A DNA stretch of 64,000 bases from Methanosarcina acetivorans C2A (lineage in GTDB: Archaea; Halobacteriota; Methanosarcinia; Methanosarcinales; Methanosarcinaceae), in NCBI RefSeq assembly GCF_000007345.1, contig NC_003552.1, forward strand, positions 930,001-994,000, in the 5' to 3' direction. Below, one piece after another: positions 10,430 through 13,954 of this stretch. The notes beneath the pieces are model-generated. The model worked only from the letters and a program-made list of their open reading frames with translations. It made no database searches and was not told the origin of the DNA. Positions within the stretch are counted from its first letter, which is position 1. Every line of letters starts with the position of its first letter. Position numbers and translations under genes: made by a program.

Positions 10430-11223
10430 TTACCTGAGGGTCATTCCTTCAAGGGTGACGGTATATGCTTCCATTTTTTCGTCATATCTTATGGAGTAGT
10501 CGGTAGGGTAATAAGCTTCTGTCGGATAATTTTCCGGCAGCTTAAGAGGTTTTGTGAGTTCAGGTTTTGTTTTAAGGAAGTCTATTGTGACCATCGGTTC
10601 GATAAATACCATCTCTCCATCATAAAAGCCGTAGATTAAGGTCTCTTCGAAAGGTTGTCCATTGAATTCGGGAGAAGTCGGATCAATCCAGTGGGCTCCC
10701 ATTCTGGGGACTCCTCCGGGAATCGGGACATATCCTTTCGGAATAAACTCAGGATCAGGCTCTTTTGACAGGTTTGCCATATCCTCTTCAGTCGCCGTAA
10801 TTTTGTCCCTCTCTTCAGGACTTCTCATATAGAAGTGGACATCAAAGTGCGGATGGTCATAGATTCCCTGAGGTTCATGCCCTTCAGGGTTCCAGTCAAG
10901 CCCTATGTGGTTGAAGGCAGTAGCTGAAGCTTCCTCAGGCAGGGGAAGAGTGTATTCCGCAACTTCTTCCGGCAGTCCTGAGATCGCTAATTCCGTGAAA
11001 TTGACCCCTATTGCAGAAGGGTTCCCTTCGGCATCAAGGGTAACCCAGGAATAAACTATTCCGTCTCCAAGGGCTATACTTTCCGATGTAAACGTTTCCG
11101 TAAGGGGCTGGTTTTCTGCCTGAGTTGCAGCCCGTGTCTGAGATTCTTCTTCGACGCAACCTGAAAAACAAGCACTATTAAAGTGAGCACGCATAAACAG
11201 CTTACAATTTGGCTTTTTTTCAT
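10430..11223 (-). pseudogene. Lipoprotein of DUF5602/TTHB210-like type, frameshifted at the lipobox
   Basis: Residues after the break form a ~245-residue secreted protein with features of the TTHB210-like/DUF5602 family (GVPRMGAHWIDP, HPHFDVHFYM and EPMVTIDFL motifs). The ATG at 11223-11221 has a GGGGGG ribosome site and encodes a signal peptide MKKSQIVSCLCVLTLIVLVF, but that frame then continues QVASKK. One extra T in the run of five at about 11170 would restore SGCVEEES, a perfect lipobox joined to the mature frame. So the gene is either disrupted by a one-base deletion, affected by a sequencing error, or translated by slippage. It lies 23 nt after the IscU-like gene and is probably cotranscribed with it. 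Function unknown. Confidence 0.7.
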
Positions 11224-11246
11224 ATTACCCCCCATGCAGAGTTTAT

Positions 11247-11909
11247 TCAGGCTGTAAACACCACGTCTACCTTTTCCACGTCCCACAAAGCTCCCAGTTT
11301 TTCTATTATGTCCTCTTTTATTGCCGGGGCAAACTGATGGTCCTCAGGCAGGTCAACAACTACTCTGACAACTCCGGCTTCAACACTGATCTTAAGAATC
11401 AGATTCGTGCGGATAATGTCAAGTCCCGTCAGTGGGTTCATAACATGCTTGAGCCTCCGCCGGACGACATCTTCGGTCGTAGGCTCTTTTTCTGTAACAA
11501 GCCCGTGCTTTTCCTCATAGTCCCGGATTGCGGCACGCAGGCCCTCAACCGCAAGCACTGAGCAGTGGGCTTTAATCGGGGGTAGCCCTCCCAGTTCTTC
11601 TGAAGCCTGTTTCCAGGTTATTTTCTTAGCTTCATCCAGAGTTTTTCCCTTTGCAAGATCCGTGATTACGGACCCTGTAGCAATATTTGAAGCGCACCCG
11701 TAAGATTCGAATTTAACGTCTTCAATAACCTTTGTTTCGGGCTCGACTTTTATGTATACGGCAACCATATCCCCGCATGCCGGACTTCCTTCCAGCCCTT
11801 TTCCGTCGGCGTTCTCTATCTTCCCCACATTATGCGGGTTTCTGAAATGCTCCAGCACTTTTTCGCTATAAGGAAACTTTATACCCTCACTTTTTTTTTC
11901 GATTTTCAT
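11247..11909 (-). CDS. iscU: IscU-like Fe-S scaffold with C-terminal extra domain
   Basis: A 220-residue protein. Residues ~1-130 are an IscU/NifU-N scaffold with the three cluster-ligand cysteines in family context (PACGD, C45 and D47; YGCAS, C72; AHCSV, C116). Residues ~140-220 add an alpha/beta domain (NPLTGLDIIRTNL...VVVDLPEDHQFAPAI) resembling MIP18/DUF59-type Fe-S assembly modules rather than NifU C-terminal domains, which carry a CxxC; none is present here. It builds and hands on [2Fe-2S]/[4Fe-4S] clusters in the cytoplasm. It sits 56 nt downstream of the IscS-like gene in one operon. The ATG has an AGGA ribosome site. Confidence 0.85.
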   Translation of the reverse strand: MKIEKKSEGIKFPYSEKVLEHFRNPHNVGKIENADGKGLEGSPACGDMVAVYIKVEPETKVIEDVKFESYGCASNIATGSVITDLAKGKTLDEAKKITWKQASEELGGLPPIKAHCSVLAVEGLRAAIRDYEEKHGLVTEKEPTTEDVVRRRLKHVMNPLTGLDIIRTNLILKISVEAGVVRVVVDLPEDHQFAPAIKEDIIEKLGALWDVEKVDVVFTA

Positions 11910-11965: not shown

Positions 11966-13120
11966 TCATTTTTTTGCAAGCGGGCTTATTTCCCTGAGCC
12001 TTGCCACAATTTCACTCATCGCATCAATAGCCGCATCAGCATCTTCCATTCGGTTGTAGCGCCCGAAAGTAAAACGTACCGAACCGTGGGCTCTCTCATG
12101 GTCTCCCCCTATCCCCCTTATCACATGACTGGCTTCCAGGGAGCGGGAGAAACAGGCTGAACCCGTACTTACCGCAAACCCTCTCATATCCATATGCAGG
12201 GTTACGGATTCACCTTCCACATAGTGGAAAGTCAGATTTGCGTTCTGAGGCAGACGTTTTTCCCGGCTTCCGTTGAGGGTAACCTCCGGAATTTCGGAAA
12301 GAGCTCTTTCAATTACCCTGTCTCTCATAGCTGCAAGCTGCCGGTTTTCTTCTTCAGTTACAAGTTTCACCGCCGTTGCAAACCCTACGGCTCCGGGAAT
12401 ATTCTCTACGCCTGCTCTCAGGTTAAACTCCTGAAAACCCCCGTCCATGAATTTAACAATGGGAGTATCTTTCCGGATACAGAGCGCTCCTATCCCTCTG
12501 GGCCCATGAATTGTATGGGCTGACATTGTCACAAGGTCTACGGGCAGATCCTTCACATTTAGAGGAAGCCGGGTAAAGCTGTGGGTAGCATCGGTATGCA
12601 GGAGCACATCTTTTTCTTCGCATATCTCGGAAATAGCTTTAAGGTCCTGGGCAGTCCCTATTTCCTGATTGGAATGCTGGATCGAGACAAGGATGGTTTC
12701 TTTTGTGATTGCTTTTTTGAGCTCCTCAAGGTCGGCAAACCCTTCTGCATCCACATCCAGAAAAGTCACGTCAAAGCCCTGTTTCTGGAGGGTTTTTGCA
12801 GTATTTAAGACCGGAAAATCTTCTATCTTCGAGATGATAATGTGTTTGCCTTTCTTTTCCCTAAGGGCCCAGGCTACTCCTTTAAGCGCCATGTTGCTTG
12901 ATTCCGTATCTCCCGAAGTGAACACAATTTCTTCAGGAGCTGCCCCAAGCCCTGAAGCTATACCTTCCCTGGAATTTTCCAGGCCCTCTTTTGCATCGAT
13001 TCCCATAGAGTAGCCAAACTCGGATGTAGCTACTGCATAAGTATCAAAAAAGTAAGGCTTCATCGCTTCAAACACCCTTTCGTCCAGCCGAGTGCATGCA
13101 GCATTGTCAAGATAAATCAT
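11966..13120 (-). CDS. iscS: IscS/NifS-like protein lacking the PLP-binding lysine
   Basis: A 384-residue fold-type I aminotransferase-family protein, by sequence an IscS/NifS homologue and the expected partner of the adjacent IscU-like scaffold. The catalytic cysteine persulfide loop is present (VSTGSACFSRS, C323). However, the lysine that forms the Schiff base with PLP, normally in an SxHK motif, is Thr203 (SAHTIHGPRG). The PLP-stacking His of the EHxAV motif is Asp (IEDFPV), and the DAAQ glutamine is His (TDATHS). Archaeal IscS proteins lacking this lysine are known (Archaeoglobus fulgidus), and methanogens can use sulfide rather than cysteine as sulfur source. A PLP-independent role as IscU partner or persulfide carrier is therefore likely. 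Confidence 0.85.
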   Translation of the reverse strand: MIYLDNAACTRLDERVFEAMKPYFFDTYAVATSEFGYSMGIDAKEGLENSREGIASGLGAAPEEIVFTSGDTESSNMALKGVAWALREKKGKHIIISKIEDFPVLNTAKTLQKQGFDVTFLDVDAEGFADLEELKKAITKETILVSIQHSNQEIGTAQDLKAISEICEEKDVLLHTDATHSFTRLPLNVKDLPVDLVTMSAHTIHGPRGIGALCIRKDTPIVKFMDGGFQEFNLRAGVENIPGAVGFATAVKLVTEEENRQLAAMRDRVIERALSEIPEVTLNGSREKRLPQNANLTFHYVEGESVTLHMDMRGFAVSTGSACFSRSLEASHVIRGIGGDHERAHGSVRFTFGRYNRMEDADAAIDAMSEIVARLREISPLAKK

Positions 13121-13287: not shown

Positions 13288-13707
13288 TCAGATAAAGAGG
13301 GTTATGTTCGCGTCCCTGGCTTCCTGGATATACGAGCCAACGGCTCCCCATTCGTCCACCCATTCCGTTCGAAGCTCTTCTTTTGTTATACCCATTATCT
13401 CCATGGTCATTTCACAGGCTATGATCTTTCCGCCAAGTTCCTTGTAATCGCTCATCAGCCTTTCAAGTGAGGCGACATTGGCTTTGTCCATTCTTTTTTT
13501 TATCATCTGCCTTCCCATGCCCATCATGTTCATTTTGGAAAGCGGTCCCTTTTCAAGCTCTCCTTTTTTAAGCCGCATGAGCCCCCAGAAAGTGAAGTAT
13601 ATGGAGGCTTCCATTCCCATTGCTAGGGCTCCGTTTCCTATTATAAGCGCGCTGTATACCTTGTCCATATCCCCGCTGTGCAGGACAATAACTGCTTTTT
13701 CCCCCAT
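13288..13707 (-). CDS. DsrE/DsrF-like sulfur-carrier family protein
   Basis: A 139-residue protein of the DsrE/DrsH fold: a Rossmann-like core beginning KAVIVLHSGDMDKVYSALIIG, a central FTFWGLM segment and one conserved-type cysteine in GGKIIACEMTMEIMGI, the position used by TusD/DsrE proteins for persulfide transfer. A Met-rich stretch (MNMMGMGRQM) is typical of archaeal DrsE2-type proteins often seen beside TusA. ATG with GGAGGGG ribosome site. It lies 19 nt after the TusA gene and 167 nt before the IscS-like gene, on the same strand, which implies a sulfur relay TusA/DsrE/IscS/IscU. It is cytoplasmic. Confidence 0.8.
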   Translation of the reverse strand: MGEKAVIVLHSGDMDKVYSALIIGNGALAMGMEASIYFTFWGLMRLKKGELEKGPLSKMNMMGMGRQMIKKRMDKANVASLERLMSDYKELGGKIIACEMTMEIMGITKEELRTEWVDEWGAVGSYIQEARDANITLFI

Positions 13708-13726: not shown

Positions 13727-13954
13727 TTACCTCCGGATCTTTATCTCCCACTCTTTTCCTCCCTCTTTATCTTCGATATCCAGCACTTCGAGTCCCATTG
13801 CCTCACATGCCATGGGAATTTCTTTCTTTGATGCCGGATGCGTGCCCTTTACAACTACAAGGTCTCCTGGAGAGGCTTTTTTTAATGCTTTTCTGCACTC
13901 TACCAGCGGAACCGGGCAGGTCTGCCCTCTAACGTCTATTTCCAGTTCTGCCAA
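13727..13954 (-). CDS. tusA: TusA/SirA-family sulfurtransferase
   Basis: A 75-residue single-domain protein with the family CPxP motif (GQTCPVPLVECRKAL, catalytic Cys at residue 13) that carries persulfide sulfur between donors and acceptors such as tRNA-thiolation or Fe-S machinery. Length is normal. It starts at TTG 13954, preceded by GGGGGT about 8 nt upstream. It is the first gene of the minus-strand sulfur cluster (tusA-dsrE-iscS-iscU). Confidence 0.85.
   Translation of the reverse strand: MAELEIDVRGQTCPVPLVECRKALKKASPGDLVVVKGTHPASKKEIPMACEAMGLEVLDIEDKEGGKEWEIKIRR

Follow-up and report, generated by a model that had tools for sequence, protein, structure and literature searches.

In the IscS-IscU complex of Archaeoglobus fulgidus, the cysteine of IscS serves as a ligand of the cluster on IscU (PMC9769115; PMC7585200), and in E. 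coli the cysteines of TusA and IscS (Cys328) come within ~4 Å of each other (PMC2854127). Methanosarcina acetivorans has three IscS proteins, one of which, IscS1, was already described by Deere et al. 2020 as being without PLP-binding residues, its catalytic lysine absent as in A. fulgidus IscS. The same paper suggested an A. fulgidus-like role for IscS1, reported that the recombinant protein goes into inclusion bodies, and described the neighbours of iscSU1 simply as four genes whose function was unknown (PMC7585200). The active-site observation made in an earlier sequence-only reading of this DNA holds, and its outline has been in print since 2020. What we add is the near-exclusive pairing of lysine-less IscS with the sulfur carriers TusA and/or DsrE across many phyla, and the recognition that lysine-less IscS is a broad class.

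The iscS1 locus and its PLP site

The window, meaning the whole analysed stretch of 64,000 nucleotides of M. acetivorans C2A, encodes a protein that is IscS1 (MA0808), as identified by its match to the motif 318-STGSACFS-325 in Table 1 of Deere et al. 2020 (PMC7585200). The features of the locus are as follows.

11966..13120, minus strand: iscS1 (MA0808), lysine-less IscS, 384 aa, aminotransferase class V fold (Pfam Aminotran_5, 232.7 bits)
12512..12514, minus strand: codon of T203, at the position of the PLP Schiff-base lysine (E. coli K206), from the alignment
12818..12820, minus strand: codon of D101, at the position of the PLP-stacking His (E. coli H104), from the alignment
12581..12583, minus strand: codon of H180, at the position of the PLP O3' Gln (E. 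coli Q183), from the alignment
12665..12667, minus strand: codon of Q152, at the position of E. coli N155, which is N in 59/59 lysine-containing IscS, from the alignment
12407..12409, minus strand: codon of V238, at the position of the cross-subunit PLP-phosphate Thr (E. coli T243), from the alignment
12152..12154, minus strand: codon of C323, the mobile-loop cysteine (E. coli C328), kept, from the alignment
11247..11909, minus strand: iscU1 (MA0807), IscU scaffold fused to a MIP18/FeS_assembly_P domain (Pfam NifU_N, aa 14-135; MIP18, aa 146-216)
13288..13707, minus strand: DsrE2-like sulfur carrier, 139 aa, with a single conserved Cys98 (Pfam DrsE_2, 128.8 bits)
13727..13954, minus strand: TusA-like sulfur carrier, 75 aa, with a CPVP motif (Cys13) (Pfam TusA, 75.7 bits)

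The TusA, DsrE2 and IscU genes adjoin iscS1 and all lie on the same strand, so that the neighbours of iscSU1 include genes for two putative sulfur carriers, and IscU1 has a C-terminal MIP18 (FeS_assembly_P) domain according to Pfam. The IscU1 translation matches NifU_N with 147 bits and contains ACGD, YGC and LPPIKAHC; its cluster residues are C45, D47, C72 and C116, along with LPPIK, per Deere et al. 2020 (PMC7585200). IscS1 falls below the curated NifS/IscS equivalog cut-offs (423 vs 531 bits for TIGR03402, 376 vs 643 for TIGR02006), the window TusA below the NCBIfam TusA equivalog cut-off (35 vs 78) and the window DsrE2 below that of SulfCarrDsrE2 (65 vs 210). A scan for consensus promoters found nothing useful. 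The TTHB210-like lipoprotein gene at 10430-11286 (minus strand) shows an apparent frameshift at a T5 run, with the signal peptide MKKSQIVSCLCVLTLIVLVF in one frame and a lipobox-like FSGCVEEES in another; the frameshift could be either real or a sequence error.

The sequence-only reading had named T203 (in SAHTIHGPRG), D101 (KIEDF), H180 (DATHS) and C323 (STGSACFS), and all four residues are as it described. The alignment with E. coli IscS gives K206T, H104D and Q183H with C328 kept, and reveals two further changes in the site that the reading had overlooked, N155 to Q152 and T243 to V238. Also kept are the equivalents of D180, S203, H205 and T76 and the arginine of the RFxxGR motif (R354 equivalent). 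The site changes are not a sequencing fluke, because T203, D101, Q152, H180, V/L/I at 238 and C323 are common to all 46-47 Methanosarcinaceae orthologs. The E. coli K206 position is T in 46/46 orthologs plus one YT ortholog and K in 59/59 lysine-containing IscS; C323 is invariant in 46/46 orthologs. Among 42 columns conserved at >=95% in lysine-containing IscS, seven are wholly lost in the MA0808 clade, five of them PLP/substrate ligands (E. coli K206, H104, Q183, N155 and T243).

Judged from the sequence, the PLP/substrate site of IscS1 is gone, and the claim that the protein is not a PLP cysteine desulfurase has strong sequence support, five PLP/substrate positions having been replaced throughout a clade in which purifying selection is strong. 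In a search for a replacement lysine, K223 (codon 12452-12454, minus strand) was the only clade-specific invariant Lys of IscS1; it is Lys in 47/47 members of the MA0808 clade and mostly P/S/A both in lysine-containing IscS and in the type with Asn-Asp in place of His-Lys (ND). An AlphaFold model of IscS1, built with 33 ND-type relatives, has a mean pLDDT of 90.8, with the Cys loop 323-326 disordered, and compares with PDB structures at TM 0.95 (NFS1) and 0.94 (4EB7). The modelled protein is thus an intact, IscS-like member of fold type I.

Lysine-less IscS types and their sulfur-carrier neighbours

IscS1 reads His-Thr (HT) and is without the ND motif. The HT type is restricted to Methanosarcinaceae. 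Across 393 sampled genomes of the phylum, IscS1 orthologs (>=70% identity) occur in this family only and are absent from two of its genera and a few single genomes; genera g4 and g146 have an ND version and a flavoprotein-fused IscU instead. One Methanosarcina genome (G005, 99% complete) has neither DsrE2 nor any kind of close IscS, its best match having E 1.3e-27. A. fulgidus IscS itself is of the ND type (SSNDIYGPKG in the 4EB5 chain), and a DNA pattern scan of GTDB genomes found the ND motif at no fewer than 118 loci. Among the matches listed, the archaeal hosts are Loki-, Thor-, Bathy-, Hades- and Hermodarchaea, Thaumarchaeota, Thermoplasmatota, Archaeoglobus/Geoglobus, ANME-2 and Methanophagales, and the bacterial ones Nitrospinota, Deltaproteobacteria, WOR-3/Stahlbacteria, Aminicenantes, Actinomycetota, Bacillota and others; since many of these hosts are metagenome-assembled genomes, single placements may be binning errors. 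The motif turned up in none of the genomes with the HT type, as searched with a pattern that needs Tyr to follow Asn-Asp-x and overlooks variants like that of g4. A third lysine-less type, with Asn-Gln at H205-K206, was seen in one representative (L077, genome G087), whose class comprises only three genomes; there, IscU and then TusA lie downstream of IscS.

In a maximum-likelihood tree of 103 sequences, computed with the key columns removed, ND sequences form one clade (100/99), and the HT and Asn-Gln types form another (100/97). As the latter sits among lysine-containing sequences, the tree implies two losses of the lysine. We dropped two independent losses as a firm claim, since the AU test does not reject a single lysine-less clade (p-AU 0.4). 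Asn205 and Ala183 are common to the Asn-Gln and ND types.

The distribution of sulfur-carrier genes separates the lysine-less proteins from the lysine-containing ones. We searched the ORFs around each IscS with TusA, DsrE and IscU profiles, counting loci with >=1 kb upstream and >=0.7 kb downstream and taking as neighbours genes within 1.5 kb on the same strand. TusA and/or DsrE stand beside IscS in 105 of 117 lysine-less loci, the ND loci being among the matches listed, versus 0 of 51 lysine-containing loci (Fisher 6.5e-32). After clustering at 60% identity, the comparison is 14/15 vs 0/17 (Fisher p 3e-8). The ND loci had been picked by their IscS motif and not by their neighbours, and 20 of the 51 lysine-containing loci were obtained by searching genomes in which an ND locus is present as well. 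The order TusA-DsrE-IscS*-IscU (IscS* denoting the lysine-less protein) is the usual one and occurs in 39 HT and 36 ND loci; the other side of the count is the 12/117 lysine-less loci with neither carrier as a neighbour. The carrier cysteines are well conserved, the TusA CPxP in 139/140 relatives and the DsrE Cys in 101/103. That IscS1 works with IscU, TusA and DsrE had been proposed from the operon, and the comparison of 117 with 51 loci strengthens this proposal considerably. We found the link between TusA/DsrE and lysine-less IscS in no open-access paper, the search having been confined to these.

The association extends to gene content. Within Methanosarcinaceae, DsrE2 orthologs are present in 65 of 70 genomes with IscS1 versus 0 of 8 without it, and in genomes of genus g3 (G032) TusA and DsrE2 lie together more than 100 kb away from IscS1. 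One genome (G246) has IscS1 and no DsrE2, and in two others (G011, locus L036; G017, locus L035) DsrE2 remnants with several stop codons lie directly upstream of an intact iscS1. Because DsrE2 is missing from the former and decayed in the latter two, it is not strictly required and is dispensable in some lineages. The IscS1 proteins of G011 and G017 are the most diverged complete ones in the genus.

IscU beside lysine-less IscS comes in several forms. It is plain in many loci and fused to MIP18 in Methanosarcinaceae methanogens. A complete pyridine-nucleotide oxidoreductase is attached to it in ANME-2-like genomes, in one Freyarchaeon and in two further genera of Methanosarcinaceae, and a partial one in Loki/WOR-3/Deltaproteobacteria. 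At ANME-2/ANME-3-like loci (L060:372-1703, minus strand; L252, L253, L254 and L173), a fusion of IscU with a complete thioredoxin-reductase-like flavoprotein (NifU_N + Pyr_redox_2) comes right after the lysine-less IscS; such a protein might bring its own supply of electrons for reducing persulfide. At lokiarchaeal loci (L099:2078-4459, L137, L192, L196 and L207), a CoA-disulfide-reductase-like/rhodanese/TusA fusion is encoded just after IscU.

A putative sulfur relay and its alternatives

We favour, with moderate confidence, the reading that IscS1 is a non-PLP relay and docking subunit that takes sulfane sulfur from TusA/DsrE onto Cys323 and passes it on to IscU1, possibly serving as a cluster ligand as well. 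As far as sequence comparison can establish, the PLP/substrate residues are lost, the Cys loop, the fold and the IscU partner residues are kept, and the gene travels with sulfur carriers. For the direction of transfer, the persulfide on Cys323, the source of sulfur and the role of the MIP18 domain, we infer the following scheme. IscS1 would be a catalytically dismantled cysteine desulfurase that now relays sulfur and serves as a docking subunit, independently of PLP. TusA and DsrE2 would gather sulfane sulfur as Cys-persulfides, with sulfide, polysulfide or other reduced sulfur as the source. TusA might then dock at the site it uses on E. coli IscS and hand sulfur to Cys323 on the mobile loop, in reverse of the E. 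coli direction. Cys323 would swing to IscU1 and deliver the sulfur there. Like Cys321 in A. fulgidus, it may also ligate the cluster for a short time while this is being built, and the MIP18 domain that IscU1 carries could help pass the cluster on.

The association of TusA/DsrE with lysine-less IscS does not in itself give the direction of transfer, and in M. acetivorans an active IscS2 could load TusA. Two Archaeoglobus genomes (G445 and G466) and one Hadesarchaea genome (G433) hold a lysine-less IscS and no other IscS, and in these a donor other than an IscS-family cysteine desulfurase is therefore favoured. More tentatively, at somewhat short of an even chance, lysine-less IscS may represent a desulfurase-free ISC system that is widespread among anaerobic archaea and bacteria (TusA-DsrE-IscS*-IscU, the IscU often carrying a fused redox or MIP18 domain). 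Such a system would take inorganic or sulfane sulfur via the carriers, and the former enzyme would be a pure persulfide relay, with sulfur moving from TusA onto IscS, the opposite of the E. coli direction.

Among the alternatives, a purely A. fulgidus-like mode fares best, though we consider it unlikely. IscS1 would carry no sulfur and would be a scaffold lending Cys323 as the fourth ligand to an IscU1 cluster made with iron and free sulfide; TusA and DsrE2 would do something else or only protect cysteines. This mode has its precedent in the cluster-ligating cysteine of A. fulgidus IscS, and IscS1 likewise has lost the lysine, kept the Cys loop and has IscU as a neighbour. However, it leaves unexplained both the presence of TusA/DsrE beside lysine-less and not lysine-containing genes and the co-occurrence of unlinked DsrE2 with IscS1.

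It is also conceivable, at a distinctly low probability, that IscS1 still holds PLP non-covalently and carries out a slow or altered PLP reaction, for example on another thiol or a persulfide. The lysine-less A. fulgidus crystal 4EB5 is drawn with PLP bound (PMC9769115), the title of PDB 4HVK reads 'unusual L-cysteine desulfurase', and IscS1 keeps the equivalents of D180, S203, H205, T76 and R354 and has the clade-specific invariant K223. Against this, the stacking His, the O3' Gln, the cross-subunit Thr and the N155-equivalent Asn are lost in every IscS1 ortholog. PLP binding of the kind drawn in 4EB5 thus appears less likely in IscS1, because the stacking His and the cross-subunit Thr have gone along with the lysine.

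IscS active sites borrow a Thr from the other subunit, which speaks for the idea that IscS1 is a pseudo-enzyme partner of IscS2/IscS3, a heterodimer subunit or a competitor for IscU/TusA that regulates them, as does the presence of three IscS in M. acetivorans (PMC7585200). We regard this as very improbable: IscS1 is without the Thr to be lent and has an IscU of its own, and the Archaeoglobus and Hadesarchaea genomes above hold lysine-less IscS alone. Finally, that IscS1 is a decaying paralogue without function, as its lost catalytic residues and the consistent detection of only IscS2/U2 in proteomes (PMC7585200) might indicate, is scarcely credible and was rejected, because its median pairwise dN/dS in Methanosarcina (0.067) is similar to that of IscU1, DsrE2 and TusA (0.050-0.064), 157 residues are invariant over 47 orthologs, and MA0808 is marked as proteome-detected (PMC7585200).

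Implications and comparison with known systems

The preferred relay reading bears on how anaerobes obtain the sulfur of their clusters, as lysine-less IscS together with TusA/DsrE suggests an Fe-S sulfur supply without cysteine. For anaerobes whose sole IscS cannot use cysteine, such as Archaeoglobus, the gene association names concrete candidate sulfur donors for IscU, namely TusA and DsrE. Many archaeal and bacterial proteins annotated as 'cysteine desulfurase' are without the catalytic lysine, and it is therefore unsafe to reconstruct pathways with cysteine as the source of sulfur on the strength of such annotations. The TusA/DsrE pairing turns what was a two-species oddity into a testable and apparently widespread variant of ISC.

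The A. fulgidus IscS-IscU complex (PDB 4EB5, 4EB7 and 4HVK; D199K mutant 4R5F) is the closest solved sequence to IscS1 and has the same fold (TM 0.94-0.95). Both IscS proteins are without the PLP lysine and have the Cys loop, and sampled Archaeoglobus relatives of the A. fulgidus type have TusA upstream (one also DsrE) and IscU downstream. The two types differ in how the site was altered: in the A. fulgidus type, Asn-Asp occupies H205-K206, H104 and a T/S at 243 remain and the substrate Arg is gone, whereas in the MA0808 type the pair is His-Thr, H104, N155 and T243 are gone and the Arg remains. M. acetivorans IscS2 (MA2718), which has been demonstrated to be a PLP cysteine desulfurase, belongs to the same genome and fold, is 46% identical to IscS1 and is likewise followed by iscU; unlike IscS1, it has K199, H97, Q176 and T234 and no adjoining TusA/DsrE. 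E. coli IscS is alike in fold and partners, but in E. coli it provides the sulfur and TusA receives it, a donor role that IscS1 would be unable to fill.

The TusA/DsrE2 modules of sulfur-oxidising prokaryotes resemble the window carriers in their Pfam families (TusA, DrsE_2) and conserved carrier cysteines; in contrast to them, the window pair has IscS*-IscU, not sulfur-oxidation genes, as its linked partners and scores below the NCBIfam equivalog cut-offs. Reduced Fe-S machinery, as here, is also a feature of the minimal MIS and SMS (SufBC) systems of anaerobes. SMS dispenses with a cysteine desulfurase and is able to draw on inorganic sulfur (PMC12192291), whereas MIS has been described with a cysteine desulfurase; in the system represented by iscS1, the IscS-like subunit is lysine-less and sulfur carriers are added.
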